A DNA stretch of 64,000 nucleotides, from positions 1,116,001 through 1,180,000 of the forward strand of contig NZ_AP014879.1 in NCBI RefSeq assembly GCF_002355735.1, written 5' to 3'. The notes beneath the pieces were generated by a model, which did not search any database, was not told the origin of the DNA, and worked only from the letters and a program-made list of their open reading frames with translations. The DNA comes from Sulfuricaulis limicola. Lineage in GTDB: Bacteria; Pseudomonadota; Gammaproteobacteria; Acidiferrobacterales; Sulfurifustaceae. The position numbers and the translations under genes were made by a program. Positions 6,026 to 60,462 of this stretch are shown one piece after another. Every line of letters begins with the position of its first letter. Within the stretch, counting starts at the first letter, position 1.

Positions 6026-6088
6026 TGAACCTCCCCCGATTTCGTGGACACCCCGTTAAGGTGGACAATACCGAAATCGGAGGACCCT

Positions 6089-6385
6089 ATGTCAGCACAA
6101 AAACGACGTCAATACACCGAGGAGTTCAAGACCGAGGCCGTGCGCCTGGTGCAGGAAAGTGGTAAACCCGTGGCCGAGATCGCACGGGAGCTCGGCATCG
6201 CGGAGAATCTGCTGTACCGCTGGCGAACCGAGGAACATAACGCACGTCGCCTCGGGACCACGCGGACGAACCTCAAGGCCGAGCACGAAGAGCTGACGTG
6301 TCTTCGCCGCGAGCTCGACACCGTGAGAAAGGAGCGTGATTTTTTAAAGCGTGCGGCGGCGTTCTTCGCGAGGGAGCGGTCATGA
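6089..6385 (+). CDS. IS3-family transposase OrfA (helix-turn-helix), copy 1
   Basis: A 98-residue protein starting MSAQKRRQYTEEFKTEAVRL with ribosome site CGGAGGA just upstream. It carries the HTH_Tnp_1 domain (AEIARELGIAENLLYRWR) and a C-terminal leucine-rich helix for oligomerisation. Its stop overlaps the OrfB start (ATGA), and a TTTTTTAAAG run at about 6339 could serve a programmed -1 frameshift to OrfAB, as in other IS3 members. Identical to copy 2. Confidence 0.95.
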   Translation: MSAQKRRQYTEEFKTEAVRLVQESGKPVAEIARELGIAENLLYRWRTEEHNARRLGTTRTNLKAEHEELTCLRRELDTVRKERDFLKRAAAFFARERS

Positions 6386-15614: not shown

Positions 15615-15631
15615 ACCCCCTAATAAATATT

Positions 15632-15711
15632 TCACAGGATTTACAGGATTCAAACTGCTTTAAATTTAGAAATTAATCCTGTAAATCCTGAAAAATCCTG
15701 TTAATCCTGTC
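15632..15711. repeat. GACAGGATT-type inverted repeat (copy b)
   Basis: The left arm (15632-15650, CACAGGATTTACAGGATT) and right arm (15674-15711, with three AATCCTG units) flank an AT-rich loop. It fills most of the gap after secF and may end that transcript. The remainder, up to 15871, carries no ORF but has possible NtrC-like sequence at 15751-15767. Confidence 0.88.
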
Positions 15712-15871
15712 TATTTCATTTCGTTAAAGAGTTACATCCCTCGCCCGCGGCGCACCAAACGCGGGCATTTCTCCCTCGCATTCACCATCGCTGTGCATCC
15801 ATACGTTCGCGCAGAGCGTTGTCATGCGTTTGTTTCCCGCCGAATCAAGCGGTTAGCGCTTCCAGGCATCA

Positions 15872-15887
15872 TGGCACAGCGGTTGCT
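15872..15887 (+). promoter_or_regulatory. sigma-54 (RpoN) promoter upstream of nasT
   Basis: TGGCACA-GCGG-TTGCT fits the -24/-12 consensus TGGCACG-N4-TTGCW with a single deviation. The expected transcription start is near 15899, 19 bases before nasT. A degenerate NtrC-like dyad (CGCACCAAACGCGGGCA, 15751-15767) is about 140 bases upstream of that start, the usual enhancer distance. Confidence 0.75.
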
Positions 15888-15917: not shown

Positions 15918-16502
15918 ATGCGACTTCGAATACTTTTGATGACTGATCAACCCGATAGCACGGTGCTGATCGAGCATGCGCTCAGCGCGGCCCGGCATCA
16001 TGTCGTGACGGTCATTCGCCCGGACGACGACCTGTGTTTCTACGCGCGCCAGGCCCGCCCCGATGCTGTCGTGGCGTCGCTGGCGGCGCCCGACCCGGCG
16101 GTGGTGCAGCAGCTGGAACAATTGTCGCGTGAATGCCCCTTGCCGGTCGTGGTGTTTACCGAACGCAGCGATAACGCGCCGCTGCGCGCCGCCGTCAAGG
16201 CCGGCGTCAGCGCCTACGTGGTGGACGGCCTGGAGGCGGAGCGCGTCGAGCCGGTGTTGCAAACGGCATTGGCGCGGTTTCGCGAATTTCAGGCGCTGCG
16301 CCAGGAGCGTGACGCCGCGGTTATGGAACTGGCCGAGCGCAAGCTCGTCGAGCGCGCCAAGGGTATTTTGATGCGCCGGCGTAACCTGCCGGAGAACGTG
16401 GCCTATACCGCGCTGCGCAAGATGGCGATGGACCGGGGCAAGCGCCTGGCCGAAGTGGCGGAAAGCATCGTGACGGCGGAAGAAGCGCTGGCGCAGGGCT
16501 GA
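15918..16502 (+). CDS. nasT: ANTAR-domain response regulator / transcription antiterminator NasT
   Basis: A 194-residue protein: an N-terminal receiver-like domain (RLRILLMTDQPDST...) and a C-terminal ANTAR RNA-binding domain (about 130-188; ERKLVERAKGILMRRRNLPE, ALRKMAMDRGKRLAEVAESI). NasT binds paired hexaloop hairpins in leader RNAs and prevents termination when nitrate frees it from the sensor NasS. The start was placed at ATG 15918, just downstream of the sigma-54 promoter; a longer frame from 15819 would overlap the promoter. An ANTAR target lies right behind the gene. No nasS is in the window. Confidence 0.93.
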   Translation: MRLRILLMTDQPDSTVLIEHALSAARHHVVTVIRPDDDLCFYARQARPDAVVASLAAPDPAVVQQLEQLSRECPLPVVVFTERSDNAPLRAAVKAGVSAYVVDGLEAERVEPVLQTALARFREFQALRQERDAAVMELAERKLVERAKGILMRRRNLPENVAYTALRKMAMDRGKRLAEVAESIVTAEEALAQG

Positions 16503-16517
16503 AGATCAAGATTTTCG

Positions 16518-16597
16518 GGCGGGCCAATGGCGGTCCGCTGATTGGACAACGGCGTCCATGGGTCCGAGGGAACCTCGGGCCGATGGACGCCTTTTTT
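16518..16597 (+). promoter_or_regulatory. ANTAR-type two-hairpin antitermination leader before nrtA
   Basis: P1 pairs GCGGGCC (16519-16525) with GGTCCGC (16532-16538) around hexaloop AATGGC. P2 pairs TGGAC (16543-16547) with GTCCA (16554-16558) around hexaloop AACGGC. Both loops have A at position 1 and G at position 4, the hallmark of ANTAR targets. The 3' side of P2 overlaps the 5' side of the terminator GGCGTCCAT...ATGGACGCC (16551-16591) followed by six T residues, so P2 and the terminator are mutually exclusive. NasT binding should let transcription enter nrtABC. Confidence 0.88.
16551..16597 (+). terminator. conditional terminator of the nrt leader
   Basis: GGCGTCCAT (16551-16559) pairs with ATGGACGCC (16583-16591), with an inner CCGAG/CTCGG stem, followed by TTTTTT (16592-16597). 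It overlaps hairpin P2 of the ANTAR element, forming the off state of the switch. Confidence 0.88.
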
Positions 16598-16621
16598 ATG
16601 GCTTAAACACAGGAGAACACT

Positions 16622-17884
16622 ATGCAACGCAAGAAGTTGGCAGCAGGCAACAAGGCGGCGCGCGGGTTGTCGCGCCGGGATTTTCTGCGGTTGGGCGCCG
16701 CCGGCGCGGCCGCGGGTCTGGCCGGCTGGCGCACCAGCGCCTGGGCCGCGGGCTCGGACGCGCCCGAGAAAACCGAGGTGAAAATCGGTTTCATCCCGCT
16801 GACCGACTGCGCCAGCGTCGTGATCGCCTCGGAAATGGGTTTCGACAAGAAATACGGCATCAAGATCACGCCTTCGAAGGAAGCCAGCTGGGCCGCGGTG
16901 CGCGACAAGCTGGTGAATGGCGAACTCGATGCCTCGCACGTGCTCTACGGCCTGATCTACGGCGTGCAACTCGGCATCGGCGGCCCGAAGAAGGACATGG
17001 CCGTGCTCATGGGCATCAACCACAACGGCCAGGCCATCAGCCTCTCGAATCAGCTGAAGGACAAGGGCGTCACTGACGGCGCCAGCCTCAAGGCGCTCAT
17101 CGGCAAGGAAAAGCGCGAGTACACCTTTGCCCAGACCTTTCCTACCGGCACGCATGCCATGGAGCTGTACTACTGGCTCGCGACCTACGGCATCAATCCG
17201 ATGGCCGACGTGAAGACCATCGTCGTGCCGCCGCCGCAGATGGTGGCCAACATGCGCGTCGGCAACATGGACGGCTTCTGCGTCGGCGAGCCCTGGGGCG
17301 CGCGCGCCATCTACGACAAGATCGGTTTCACCGCCGTCACTACCCAGGAGTTGTGGAAGGATCACCCGGAAAAAGTGCTCGGCACCAGCCTCGAGTTCGT
17401 GCAGAAATATCCGAACACCACGCGCGCCATGATGGCGGCGGTGCTGGAGGCTTCGAAGTTCATCGACGCTACCGCCAATCGCGCGAAGGTGGCGCAGATC
17501 ATCGCCAGCAAGTCCTACGTCAACGCGCCGGAAGAGGTGATTCTCGGGCGCTTCCTCGGCAACTACGACAACGGCAACGGCAAGACCTGGAAGGACCCCA
17601 ACTACATGAAGTTTTATAACGACGGATACGTCAACTATCCGCACCTGTCGGATGGCATGTGGTTCCTGACGCAACACAAGCGCTGGGGCCTGCTCAAGCA
17701 GGACCCGGACTACCTCGCCGTGGCGAAACAGGTAAACCAGATCGAGCTTTACAAGCAGGTCGCGGCGCAGGTCAAGGTGGCGGTGCCGGCCAGCCCGATG
17801 CGCACCAGCAAACTCATCGACGGCGTGGTGTGGGACGGCAAGGACCCCAAGGCCTATGCCGCGGGTTTCAAGATCAAGGCCTGA
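16622..17884 (+). CDS. nrtA: nitrate ABC transporter substrate-binding protein (Tat-exported)
   Basis: A 420-residue NrtA/CmpA-type binding protein. The N-terminus carries a twin-arginine signal (SRRDFLRLG followed by a hydrophobic Ala/Gly stretch and AWAAG), then the mature fold KIGFIPLTDCASVVIASEMG, with conserved FPTGTHAMELYYWLA and GFCVGEPWGARA. It should capture nitrate (or nitrite) in the periplasm for NrtBC. The ribosome site AGGAG sits just after the attenuator terminator. The family also contains bicarbonate and taurine binders; nitrate is preferred because of nasT and the ANTAR leader. Confidence 0.92.
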   Translation: MQRKKLAAGNKAARGLSRRDFLRLGAAGAAAGLAGWRTSAWAAGSDAPEKTEVKIGFIPLTDCASVVIASEMGFDKKYGIKITPSKEASWAAVRDKLVNGELDASHVLYGLIYGVQLGIGGPKKDMAVLMGINHNGQAISLSNQLKDKGVTDGASLKALIGKEKREYTFAQTFPTGTHAMELYYWLATYGINPMADVKTIVVPPPQMVANMRVGNMDGFCVGEPWGARAIYDKIGFTAVTTQELWKDHPEKVLGTSLEFVQKYPNTTRAMMAAVLEASKFIDATANRAKVAQIIASKSYVNAPEEVILGRFLGNYDNGNGKTWKDPNYMKFYNDGYVNYPHLSDGMWFLTQHKRWGLLKQDPDYLAVAKQVNQIELYKQVAAQVKVAVPASPMRTSKLIDGVVWDGKDPKAYAAGFKIKA

Positions 17885-17899
17885 CGATAGGAGGTCGCC

Positions 17900-18811
17900 A
17901 TGAACGTGATAAGCATGAGCAAGCAAAAGAAACCGGCGAAGCCGGAAGTCTCTGAAGTCGTGGAGACGCCGGCTGCCGAGTCAGCCACCGTGTCAGCGCC
18001 TGCCGTGCCTGCGCCGTCACCAGTGGCGGGCCCGAACCGCTGGCAGCTGGCGGCACAGATGTTCCAGCGCAACGTGATGCCACCGCTGTTCGGGTTGGTG
18101 GTCTTCGTGTTGCTGTGGTCGGTGGTGTCCGTCTCCAGCGATCTGCCGGGCCCGGTCAAGACCTTCGATTCCGCGGTCAAGGTGTTCAGCGATCCGTTCT
18201 ACGATCAGGGGCCGAACGATCAGGGTATCGGCTGGAATATCCTGCACTCGCTCGGGCGCGTCGGCATCGGTTTCGGCCTGGCGGCGCTGGTGGGCATCCC
18301 GCTCGGGTTCCTGATCGGCTATTCCGGATTCCTGAACCGCATGATGGCGCCGATCATAAGCGTGCTGCGGCCGGTCTCGCCGCTCGCGTGGCTGCCGATC
18401 GGCTTGTACGTGTTCAAGCAGGCGCAGCCGGCGGCCATCTGGGTGATTTTCATTTCGAGCCTGTGGCCGATGGTGCTCAACACCGCCTCCGGCGTGACCC
18501 AAGTGCCGCAGGATTATCTCAACGTCGCGCGCGTGCTCAAACTGTCGCCGTGGAAGATGTTCAGCCGCATCCTGTTCCCGGCGGTGCTGCCGTACATGCT
18601 CACCGGCGTGCGCCTGTCCATCGGCGTCGCCTGGCTCGTGATCGTGGCGGCCGAGATGCTCACCGGCGGCATCGGCCTCGGCTTCTGGGTGTGGGACGAA
18701 TGGAACAACCTGAACGTCGAACACATCATCATCGCCATCTTCGTCGTCGGCATCGTCGGCCTGCTGCTGGAACAGGCGATCCTGCTGGTGGCGCGCCGGT
18801 TCCGATATTAA
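17900..18811 (+). CDS. nrtB: nitrate ABC transporter permease
   Basis: A 303-residue inner-membrane permease with a long Ala/Pro-rich cytoplasmic N-terminus (about 1-55). About six helices include the EAA-type coupling loop (LNVARVLKLSPWKMFSRILFP region) and SIGVAWLVIVAAEMLTGGIG, typical of NrtB/SsuC/TauC. It starts 16 bases after nrtA with ribosome site GGAGG, in one operon with nrtA and the ATPase. Confidence 0.94.
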   Translation: MNVISMSKQKKPAKPEVSEVVETPAAESATVSAPAVPAPSPVAGPNRWQLAAQMFQRNVMPPLFGLVVFVLLWSVVSVSSDLPGPVKTFDSAVKVFSDPFYDQGPNDQGIGWNILHSLGRVGIGFGLAALVGIPLGFLIGYSGFLNRMMAPIISVLRPVSPLAWLPIGLYVFKQAQPAAIWVIFISSLWPMVLNTASGVTQVPQDYLNVARVLKLSPWKMFSRILFPAVLPYMLTGVRLSIGVAWLVIVAAEMLTGGIGLGFWVWDEWNNLNVEHIIIAIFVVGIVGLLLEQAILLVARRFRY

Positions 18812-21159: not shown

Positions 21160-21272
21160 TGCGAAATCTTGATCCTACGTTAGTTTTTTTAAGAGCAGCA
21201 ATGATTGAGTGAACCTCCCCCGATTTCGTGGACACCCCGTTAAGGTGGACAATACCGAAATCGGAGGACCCT

Positions 21273-21569
21273 ATGTCAGCACAAAAACGACGTCAATACA
21301 CCGAGGAGTTCAAGACCGAGGCCGTGCGCCTGGTGCAGGAAAGTGGTAAACCCGTGGCCGAGATCGCACGGGAGCTCGGCATCGCGGAGAATCTGCTGTA
21401 CCGCTGGCGAACCGAGGAACATAACGCACGTCGCCTCGGGACCACGCGGACGAACCTCAAGGCCGAGCACGAAGAGCTGACGTGTCTTCGCCGCGAGCTC
21501 GACACCGTGAGAAAGGAGCGTGATTTTTTAAAGCGTGCGGCGGCGTTCTTCGCGAGGGAGCGGTCATGA
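21273..21569 (+). CDS. IS3-family transposase OrfA, copy 2
   Basis: Same 98-residue helix-turn-helix protein as at 6089-6385, with the same ribosome site and the same ATGA overlap with OrfB. The frame is intact, so this copy may be autonomous. Confidence 0.95.
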   Translation: MSAQKRRQYTEEFKTEAVRLVQESGKPVAEIARELGIAENLLYRWRTEEHNARRLGTTRTNLKAEHEELTCLRRELDTVRKERDFLKRAAAFFARERS

Positions 21570-57512: not shown

Positions 57513-57863
57513 TCAGCAGACAACGGCGAGTTTCACCCGTTCCGTCGAAAGCAGGAGCGAGATTCTTCCCTCCACGACCCTGACGGGAAAATGCCCGGCA
57601 CAACCTTCATCCGGCGCCACCGCCTCGCCAGTGTCGAGGGCGATGTTCCAGTTATGCAGAGGGCAGGTGACGGTTTTGCCGGACACGATGCCCTGCGACA
57701 GCGGTCCGCCCTTGTGCGGGCAGCGGTCGCGCAGGGCGAAGATTTCATCCGTGGCGGTGCGGAAAACCGCGATGTCGCCCTGCGCCGTGCATATCACGCG
57801 CGCGCCCTGCGGGGGAATATCCTCGATGCGGCCAATTTCGATCCAGTCGTTCATGAGAGTCAT
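57513..57863 (-). CDS. nirD: nitrite reductase small subunit (Rieske type)
   Basis: A 116-residue NirD with [2Fe-2S] ligand motifs CPHKGGPLSQG and CPLHNWNIAL and a typical GARVICTAQGDIAVFRT beta-sandwich. The ATG overlaps the nirB stop (TGATG), so translation is coupled; a second in-frame ATG at 57854 is possible. It forms NADH-dependent assimilatory nitrite reductase with NirB, reducing nitrite to ammonium in the cytoplasm. Confidence 0.96.
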   Translation of the reverse strand: MTLMNDWIEIGRIEDIPPQGARVICTAQGDIAVFRTATDEIFALRDRCPHKGGPLSQGIVSGKTVTCPLHNWNIALDTGEAVAPDEGCAGHFPVRVVEGRISLLLSTERVKLAVVC

Positions 57864-60304
57864 CAGGCAATTTGTTTGAGGGGCATGAATTCGTGCCGGT
57901 CGACGCTGTTTTGCGCGCGCTCGGCCCAGGGATCCACCTGCGCGTATTTCTGGGATTCCAGGAAGCGCGCGTACAGCGCTTTTCTCCCGGCGGTGTTTTC
58001 GACGACTTTCTGTTTGATCATGGCCAGTCCCACGCGCTCGACCCACGGCGCGGTGCGTTCCAGATAGCGCGCGTCTTCGCGATAGAGTTGCAGGAAGGCG
58101 CCGCAATGCTCCAGTACTTCCTCGGGTGTCACGACCTTGCACAGCAGGTCGGTGACGCGCACCTTCACGCCGCCGTTGCCGCCGACGTGCAGTTCCCAGC
58201 CGGAGTCCACCGCGACCACGCCGAAGTCCTTGATGGTGGCCTCGGCGCAGTTGCGCGGGCAGCCCGACACCGCCAGCTTGAATTTGTGCGGCGTCCATGA
58301 GCCCCAGGTCATTCTTTCGAGTTGAATGCCCATGCCGGTCGAATCCTGCACCCCGAAGCGGCACCATTCCGAGCCGACACAGGTCTTCACGGTGCGAATG
58401 GCCTTGCCGTAGGCGTGGCCGGAAACCAGCCCGGCCTTGCCGAGCTCGCCCCAGACGGCGGGCAGTTGTTCCTTCTTTATCCCCAGCAGGTCGATGCGCT
58501 GGCCGCCGGTGACCTTGACCTCGGGCACCTTGAATTTTTCCGCGACGTCGGCGATGGCGCGCAGCTCCGCCGGCGTGGTCACGCCGCCCCACATGCGCGG
58601 CACCACGGAGTAGGTGCCATCTTTCTGGATGTTGGCGTGCACGCGCTCATTGATGAAGCGCGACTGGTAATCGTCCTTCACCTCCGCCGGCCAGGTGGCG
58701 ATCAGGTAATAGTTCAGCGCCGGGCGGCAGGTGGCGCAGCCGTCCGGATTCTTCCATTCCAGTTCCTGCATCACCGTTGCGATGCTGGTCAGACGGCGCT
58801 CGCGGATCTGCGCGCGCACCTCGTCGTGGGTGTATTCGGTGCATTTGCACAGCGGTTTGGCCTGGGGCGCGGCGGAGTAATCGCCGCCGAGCGTTATTGC
58901 GAGTATCTGTTCCACCAGCCCGGTGCAGGAACCGCAGGAGGAAGAGGCCTTGGTGTGGGCGCGCACGTCCTCGAGGGTGAAGAGTTTTTTGCCGACGATG
59001 GCCTGGACGATTTCACCCTTGCACACGCCGTTGCAGCCACAAATTTCGGCCTTGTCGTCCATGGCCGCGACGGCGTTGGCGCCGCCGTGACCGGCGTCGC
59101 CCAGGTGCGCCTGGCCGTGCAGCAGGCGCGTGCGGAAGGCGCTGACGTCCGTGCCCTCGCGCATCAGCTGGAAATACCAGGCGCCGTCCACGGTATCGCC
59201 CACCATGACCGCGCCCTGGATGCGGTTGTCCTTGAGCACGACCTTCTTGTACACGCCCGCGCCCGGATCCTGCAGCACGATGCTTTCGGTCTGGTCGTTG
59301 CCGGTGAAATCGCCGGCGGAGAACACGTCGATGCCGGTGACCTTGAGCTTGGTCGAGGTGACCGAGCCCTGATAGCGGCGGATGCCGAGCCGGGCCAGGT
59401 GATCGGAACAGACCTTGGCCTGCTCGAACAGTGGCGCCACCAGCCCATACGTTTGGCGCCGGTGCTGCACGCACTCGCCCACGGCATACACGCTCGGGTC
59501 GTAGGTTTGCATGGTGTCGTTGACGATGATGCCGCGCTCGCAGTAAATCCCGGATTTTTTCGCGAGATCGATGTTCGGACGTATGCCGACCGCCATGACC
59601 ACGAGGTCGGCGGTGGTTTCGCGTCCGTCCTTGAAGCGCACGCCCTGCACGCGTTTCTTGCCGATGATCTCCGCGGTTTCCGCACCGAGCAGGAATTCCA
59701 CGCCACGCTCCTCGAGCGAGCGGTGCAGCATGCCTCCGGCCACTTCGTCCAGCTGACGGTCCATCAGCGTCTTGGAAAGATGCACCACCGTGACGTGCAT
59801 GCCGCGCTGCTTCAATCCATTCGCCGCCTCCAGGCCCAGCAGCCCGCCGCCGATGACGACGGCATGGCGCAGCGACTTGGACGCACTGATCATGGTGTCC
59901 ACGTCGTTCATGTCGCGGAAGGTGATGACGCCGGGCAAAGTGCTGCCCGGCACCGGGATAATGAACGGATGGGAACCGGTGGCCAGCAGCAGCCGGTCAT
60001 ATTCGGCGGCGGTGCCATCCCGGGCGACGACTTTCCGTGCCCGCCGGTCGATCCCGGTGACTTCGCAGTTCTTGTGCAGTTTGATGCCGTTGGCTTGGTA
60101 CCACGGTTCGTCGTTCAGCAGGATGTCGGGAAAGGCCTTTTCGCCCGCGAGCACGGGCGAGAGCAGGATGCGGTTGTAGTTCCCGTACGGCTCGGAGCCG
60201 AACACGGTGATGTCATACATGTCCGGCGCGGTCTTGAGCAACTCCTCGAGCGTGCGCATGCCGGCCATGCCATTGCCGACCAATACCAGCTTTTCTTTTT
60301 GCAT
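57863..60304 (-). CDS. nirB: NAD(P)H nitrite reductase large subunit
   Basis: A flavo-sirohaem protein of 813 residues. FAD/NAD domain (about 1-290; VLVGNGMAGMRTLEELL, GGGLLGLEAANGL, DPSVYAVGECVQHR), BFD-like [2Fe-2S] cysteines (CGCNGVCKGEIV, SSCGSCTG), a second cysteine set (CKCTEYTHDE, CATCRPALNYY) and the nitrite-reductase core with CVGSEWCRFGVQDS and CPRNCAEATIKDFG for the 4Fe-4S/sirohaem. The start was set at ATG 60304, giving MQKEKLVLVG; a longer frame would run over the sigma-54 promoter. Co-transcribed with nirD. Confidence 0.96.
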   Translation of the reverse strand: MQKEKLVLVGNGMAGMRTLEELLKTAPDMYDITVFGSEPYGNYNRILLSPVLAGEKAFPDILLNDEPWYQANGIKLHKNCEVTGIDRRARKVVARDGTAAEYDRLLLATGSHPFIIPVPGSTLPGVITFRDMNDVDTMISASKSLRHAVVIGGGLLGLEAANGLKQRGMHVTVVHLSKTLMDRQLDEVAGGMLHRSLEERGVEFLLGAETAEIIGKKRVQGVRFKDGRETTADLVVMAVGIRPNIDLAKKSGIYCERGIIVNDTMQTYDPSVYAVGECVQHRRQTYGLVAPLFEQAKVCSDHLARLGIRRYQGSVTSTKLKVTGIDVFSAGDFTGNDQTESIVLQDPGAGVYKKVVLKDNRIQGAVMVGDTVDGAWYFQLMREGTDVSAFRTRLLHGQAHLGDAGHGGANAVAAMDDKAEICGCNGVCKGEIVQAIVGKKLFTLEDVRAHTKASSSCGSCTGLVEQILAITLGGDYSAAPQAKPLCKCTEYTHDEVRAQIRERRLTSIATVMQELEWKNPDGCATCRPALNYYLIATWPAEVKDDYQSRFINERVHANIQKDGTYSVVPRMWGGVTTPAELRAIADVAEKFKVPEVKVTGGQRIDLLGIKKEQLPAVWGELGKAGLVSGHAYGKAIRTVKTCVGSEWCRFGVQDSTGMGIQLERMTWGSWTPHKFKLAVSGCPRNCAEATIKDFGVVAVDSGWELHVGGNGGVKVRVTDLLCKVVTPEEVLEHCGAFLQLYREDARYLERTAPWVERVGLAMIKQKVVENTAGRKALYARFLESQKYAQVDPWAERAQNSVDRHEFMPLKQIA

Positions 60305-60346: not shown

Positions 60347-60363
60347 AGCAACCGGCGTGCCAG
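60347..60363 (-). promoter_or_regulatory. sigma-54 (RpoN) promoter of nirBD
   Basis: On the minus strand CTGGCACG-CCGG-TTGCT matches the -24/-12 consensus YTGGCACG-N4-TTGCW at every position. The expected transcription start is near 60336, about 30 bases before nirB. Confidence 0.85.
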
Positions 60364-60445: not shown

Positions 60446-60462
60446 TGCACTCTCCCGGTGCA
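60446..60462 (-). promoter_or_regulatory. NtrC-like enhancer site upstream of nirBD
   Basis: TGCACCGGGAGAGTGCA (minus strand) fits the NtrC dyad TGCACC-N5-GGTGCA with one mismatch. It is centred about 118 bases upstream of the predicted start, the normal enhancer distance. Additional GTGCAC half-sites lie at about 60459-60480. Confidence 0.7.

Follow-up and report, generated by a model that had tools for sequence, protein, structure and literature searches.

A NasT-type ANTAR attenuator between nasT and nrtA in the NasS-lacking genome of Sulfuricaulis limicola

Accounts of nitrate-responsive antitermination usually pair a sensor with an antiterminator, and the nasT-nrtABC locus of Sulfuricaulis limicola raises the question of what such an antiterminator follows where the sensor is missing. 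The locus lies in a stretch of 64,000 nucleotides, hereafter the window, whose relevant features are listed in Table 1. The kind of switch found in it is already known. According to our main reading, to which we assign a probability of about 0.6, an ANTAR attenuator inside a nasT-nrtABC operon works without NasS, and nrtABC would follow nitrogen limitation via the amount of NasT. Antiterminator, RNA target and nitrogen-starvation promoter are kept without the sensor here and, among the near relatives that were examined, in most, and the question of which signal, if any, NasT requires thereby becomes testable.

Architecture of the leader between nasT and nrtA

The initial annotation described two hairpins with A1/G4 hexaloops, with which coordinates and folding agree. 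P1 pairs 16518-16525 with 16532-16539 (+) around the loop AATGGC (16526-16531), and P2, on the antiterminator side, pairs 16543-16547 with 16554-16558 (+) around AACGGC (16548-16553). A terminator sharing sequence with the second hairpin, also part of that description, is equally present: GGCGTCCAT (16551-16559) pairs with ATGGACGCC (16583-16591), followed by TTTTTT (16592-16597), and the last three bases of the P2 loop as well as its entire 3' arm fall inside the 5' arm of the terminator (16551-16559 common to both). The regulator gene is indeed immediately upstream, with only 15 nt between the nasT stop (16502) and P1, while an AGGAG ribosome site (16611-16615) precedes the nrtA start at 16622. 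The leader thus corresponds to the ANTAR-leader motif of Ramesh 2012, both in its two hexaloop stem-loops with A1 and G4 and in the mutual exclusion of P2 and the intrinsic terminator.

Folded alone, the terminator arm reaches -38.4 kcal/mol and P2 -6.4, and because the terminator is far more stable, the default state is expected to be off and P2 to need help. Compared with shuffled sequences, leader folding gave a z of -6.1 and the terminator alone a z of -8.1, none of 200 shuffles being as good. Moreover, the 64 kb were scanned for pairs of A1/G4 hexaloop hairpins whose stems reach 5 bp or more; the + strand gave exactly one match, namely this leader, and the other strand gave none.

The genes behind the leader are those of a nitrate-type transporter. 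The closest relative of NrtA is the nitrate-binding Synechocystis protein of the same name (2g29, E 1e-86), with the bicarbonate protein CmpA further away (2e-60), and NrtB and NrtC exceed their NCBIfam cut-offs (254.5 bits against 209 for TIGR01183, and 344.5 bits against 291.8 for TIGR01184, respectively).

Table 1. Features of the window around nasT-nrtABC and nirB
Feature	Position	Strand	Basis or remark
Weak NtrC-like palindrome TTCACCATCGCTGTGCA, 2 mismatches	15781-15797	+	similar-quality chance matches elsewhere in window
Perfect sigma54 (-24/-12) promoter TGGCACAGCGGTTGCT, 46 nt before nasT start	15872-15887	+	pattern search
nasT-like gene, degenerate receiver and ANTAR domain	15918-16502	+	PF03861 E 2.2e-18
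ANTAR domain, residues 137-185	16326-16472	+	most RNA-contact residues kept
P1 hairpin	16518-16539	+	folding, motif scan, covariation
P2 hairpin	16543-16558	+	folding, motif scan, covariation
Intrinsic terminator overlapping P2	16551-16597	+	folding, -38.4 kcal/mol
nrtA, nitrate-type substrate-binding protein, Tat signal RGLSRRDFLRLG	16622-17884	+	homology
nrtB, nitrate ABC permease	17900-18811	+	TIGR01183 equivalog
nrtC, nitrate ABC ATPase, 266 aa	18902-19702	+	TIGR01184
nirB, assimilatory nitrite reductase	57863-60304	-	homology
Perfect sigma54 site before nirB	60347-60362	-	pattern search
Perfect NtrC-type palindrome TGCACTCTCCCGGTGCA before nirB	60446-60462	.	pattern search

Conservation and covariation in relatives

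The initial annotation had proposed a covariation search as a check and loss of the A1/G4 loops in relatives as a refutation; covariation was found, and the loops persist. In an alignment of nineteen leaders, P1 and P2 both covary, with standard pairs in 91.8% of cells and changes on both sides in 11 of the 13 pairs (as high in 0/500 shuffles); slid controls bring the paired fraction down to 31-51%. The percentage paired is partly built in since the leaders were picked by a scan demanding paired stems. The both-side changes, which amount to 47 cells against 14 in shuffles, and the 11 genomes outside the seed of the covariance model are free of this bias.

A covariance model built from the relatives (R1) and searched against the whole genome recovered the leader with 56.2 bits (E 4.3e-9) as the sole credible site; the next match (position 2627778, E 0.018) sits inside a sensor-kinase gene and was dropped. 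Of 30 relatives that encode an ANTAR protein, the same model detects the leader in 26 (11 genomes outside its seed), and it detects none in ten relatives for which a protein search showed no NasT-like ANTAR protein. Among the leaders of 40 relatives, A1/G4 of P2 is kept in 39 and the overlap of terminator and P2 in 33. Seven relatives appeared to have lost P1, but there the model had put P1 on a hairpin without a hexaloop, and they are not counted as losses because the true A1/G4 P1 was read further upstream, an additional hairpin standing between it and P2. An extra stable hairpin without an ANTAR loop occurs between P1 and P2 in the leaders after nasT of L120, L121, L124, L128, L131, L132 and L141.

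A strong terminator directly after nasT could also be an ordinary one that ends the nasT transcript, with nrtABC served by its own promoter and the hexaloops coincidental. Against this stand the covariation and loop conservation (model E 4e-9), the close spacing of nasT and P1, a promoter search that found neither a sigma70 nor a sigma54 site in the nasT-nrtA gap, and the gene order nasT-leader-nrtA, which is kept in relatives; we regard it as extremely improbable.

The NasT protein

NasT is the only ANTAR protein of the genome, which is assembled in one contig and 99.93% complete, and its closest solved relatives are EutV, Rv1626 and NasR. Mapping the EutV list of RNA contacts (PMC8934654) through a NasT-EutV alignment showed that R141, K142, K148, E159, Y163, R167, M171 and R176 are identical, R146 is a conservative change, and D172 and G174 differ. 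Taken together with the anatomy, the covariation and the persistence of the loops, these retained residues argue that the leader is a genuine ANTAR/NasT attenuator within an operon, for which NasT binding is predicted. The initial annotation's view of an ANTAR antitermination switch targeting nitrate transporter genes accordingly holds, on the grounds of anatomy, covariance model (E 4.3e-9) and conservation.

The receiver match is weak, and Ser54 occupies the place of the phosphoacceptor Asp on which a phosphorylated response regulator of the EutV type depends, so receiver phosphorylation was set aside as the signal. The protein has the receiver-like and ANTAR domains and the linkage to nitrate genes that mark a NasT. 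In the tree it stands among NasT proteins, in a separate branch of seven proteins that has full support and includes no locus with NasS; the other six members carry Asp, Gly or Glu at the phosphoacceptor position. As a fold, the receiver is still conserved (50% average identity for group-A pairs), which suggests that it binds something and counts against a sensorless NasT. The ratio of receiver to ANTAR divergence is 1.31 without NasS and 1.10 with NasS, the groups being labelled by locus, and L119, L120 and L126, first called NasS-bearing, having exported NrtA proteins only; a higher receiver divergence without NasS is therefore suggestive only.

Two relatives carry tandem ANTAR genes before leader and nrtABC (L115:9469-10718, on the same contig as L043, and L116:6295-7589). 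In L115 the upstream copy no longer has key residues for RNA contact (Y163F, R167N, M171A and R176S in the numbering of the window protein), as if it had turned into a regulatory subunit.

Absence of the NasS sensor

The initial annotation noted that nasS is not adjacent, which is correct but understated: a PF13379 search found no NasS anywhere in the genome, the sole PF13379 (NMT1_2/NrtA-family) protein being the Tat-exported NrtA, although such a search is blind to sensors unrelated to NasS. Authentic NasS proteins reach 248-290 bits with PF13379, so a NasS would have been found here. The cytoplasmic, NrtA-like NasS without a signal peptide that defines the NasS-NasT two-component system is thus lacking, and the genome's single ANTAR protein has no fused NIT domain. 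The initial annotation saw every part of a nitrate-responsive ANTAR mechanism; the parts of the ANTAR switch stand, but nitrate sensing is not supported (no NasS, Ser54, no NIT domain). Judging from gene content, readthrough into nrtABC is likely to be nitrate-independent.

Most near relatives that were examined lack NasS as well, and of the 30 genomes with an ANTAR protein no more than two, G024 and G068, were identified as having a signal-less NasS-type protein. These calls rely on a single Pfam family and on signal motifs assessed by eye and from hydropathy. Where a relative's locus has no NasS, its single NrtA carries a Tat or Sec signal, and five more NrtA-like proteins in doubtful genomes carry Tat motifs too. 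The SUP05-type genome G095 contains no PF13379 (NrtA-family) protein.

The partner documented for NasT is NasS (PMC3795266), which speaks for a classic nitrate-responsive NasS-NasT pair with nasS elsewhere in the genome; with an exported NrtA as the only PF13379 protein of a complete genome, such a pair is contradicted unless NasS had another fold, and we give it almost no credence. Alternatively, NrtA itself, before export or via the transporter, may hold NasT in the stead of NasS, so that a transport protein would sense nitrate. NasS is a homologue of NrtA without a signal peptide (PMC3795266), and NrtA is the only homologue here. But Tat or Sec signals are retained in NrtA and in its orthologues at every locus without NasS, so that the folded protein should be periplasmic, and NrtC is without a C-terminal NrtA-like regulatory domain; mainly for the signal peptide, this proposal is rated very unlikely.

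In SUP05, Thioglobus and Ruthia, glnK-amtB is directly preceded by a dual-hairpin leader and its terminator, and a NasT without NasS is encoded downstream (L048:239, L050:2273, L051:195, L058:8141, L064:636, L069:4853, L070:7406, L104:7166 and L109:6864). The NasT of these loci carries Asn at the receiver phosphoacceptor position.

Control by a partner other than NasS, such as PII, a tandem ANTAR paralogue as in the relatives, or the transporter, would allow NasT still to sense nitrate or nitrogen status. It would agree with the conserved receiver of NasT, with the second ANTAR gene of two relatives, whose decayed RNA-contact residues are those expected of a regulatory subunit, and with SUP05, where the leader before glnK-amtB places PII next to a NasS-less NasT. 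NasS-less loci, however, have no conserved extra gene between nasT and nrtA, and the genome of the window has a single ANTAR protein. We consider such a partner less likely than not.

Probable sigma54 and NtrC control

The sigma54 pattern TGGCAC-N5-TTGCW occurs in perfect form 13 times in the 2.86 Mb genome, whereas its reversed control does not occur at all; nasT, nirB and nasA are each preceded by one of the 13. In most nearby relatives a sigma54 site lies 40-70 nt before nasT, with at most one mismatch in 24 of 46 upstream regions compared with 0.2% of shuffles. An NtrC equivalog is encoded in the genome, so both the promoter and the activator of a sigma54/NtrC-controlled operon are present. 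As well, nirB appears from its promoter type to be a member of the same regulon, and it has no ANTAR leader or attenuator, the dual-hairpin scan of the window having given no second motif. Elsewhere in the same genome, a perfect sigma54 site (L182:7925-7940) precedes nasA, and a palindrome of NtrC-like type lies some 80-100 nt upstream.

According to previous studies in Paracoccus, NtrBC controls nasT (PMC5424462), and nas expression is constitutive in a nasS mutant (PMC3795266). These reports, combined with the sigma54 site and NtrC found here, lead to the expectation that nitrogen limitation sets nrtABC readthrough via NasT.

Proposed mechanism and comparison with known systems

The sensorless operation that we favour builds on the observed anatomy, conservation, covariation, intact RNA-contact residues, promoter, NtrC presence and NasS absence. 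RNA polymerase would start at the sigma54 promoter (15872), transcribe nasT and by default halt at the highly stable terminator that follows. NasT translated from this transcript is predicted to bind the A1/G4 loops of P1 and P2; bound P2 would stay closed and keep its 3' strand from the terminator, and transcription would then continue into nrtABC. NasT would need no nitrate signal for this, and nrtABC would track nitrogen limitation (NtrC/sigma54) via the NasT level, although NasT may still be modulated by some partner. Because NasS is missing genome-wide, the switch probably follows nitrogen hunger, not nitrate. A counterpoint is that the terminator would lose part of its purpose if the antiterminator were always active, unless the amount of NasT is what counts.

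The system shares with NasS-NasT of Paracoccus denitrificans, Azotobacter and Pseudomonas the REC-ANTAR antiterminator, the leader hairpins and terminator ahead of genes for nitrate assimilation and, here as a prediction, NtrC control of nasT expression (PMC3795266, PMC5424462). Unlike those systems, it has no NasS in the genome and Ser instead of the receiver Asp, and its attenuator is placed behind nasT and in front of nrtA, where it controls the transporter only, whereas nirB and nasA have sigma54 sites and no leader. Similarly, the eutP leader bound by EutV in Enterococcus faecalis has two A1/G4 hexaloops, a P2 overlapping the terminator, and a regulator in which most RNA-contact residues are the same (PMC3369931, PMC8934654), but EutV is switched by EutW phosphorylation and serves ethanolamine use, not nitrate. 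The NasR-nasF leader of Klebsiella oxytoca is likewise an example of ANTAR antitermination of nitrate assimilation, in which NasR has its own NIT nitrate sensor domain, missing here. AmiR, another ANTAR regulator, is normally silenced by AmiC, a partner of the substrate-binding-protein type; no such partner exists here, and the substrate is different.

Relation to the Rfam narK RNA

At gathering thresholds, an Rfam search found nothing in the window. A relaxed search aligned the whole of the narK RNA (RF03032) to 16490-16558, the P1 and P2 loops being the same; at 26.3 bits (E 0.0022 over 201 bases) the match falls short of the gathering threshold of 43.2, and mir- matches in this search were rejected as chance. 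The RF03032 consensus begins with GGCaCAgcucUUGCU, a sigma54 site, continues with P1, whose loop is AACGGC, and then has GACAAAGACGUC, which reads as P2, while its structure line marks P1 alone and not P2. By reading, P2 and an overlapping terminator occur in 13/16 among the RF03032 matches listed from a Gammaproteobacteria sample, most full-length matches begin with a near-consensus sigma54 site, and nasT lies within about 10 kb in seven of eight enlarged loci. In L225-L240, RF03032 elements stand before narK, nrtA, nasA and nirB.

The narK RNA therefore appears to be a sigma54 promoter joined to a NasT double-hexaloop target, and this offers an explanation for the Rfam family, whose conserved 5' end reads as the promoter and whose 3' end reads as the double hexaloop. 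The leader described here differs in that its sigma54 site is not at the start of the element but 600 nt upstream, before nasT. With odds that we put slightly short of even, sensorless NasT may couple nitrogen limitation, not nitrate, to transport genes in a broad group of Gammaproteobacteria (nrtABC here, glnK-amtB in SUP05), with the narK RNA as the sigma54-promoter-linked form of the same target.

An inverted repeat of the CCTGTAAATCCTG type (15618-15706) in the secF-nasT gap resembles several miRNA models by shape only, and identical 300-nt stretches at 6026-6325 and 21210-21509 form the left ends of an IS3-type transposon that has been duplicated; the stretch at 21210-21509 follows the nrtABC region.
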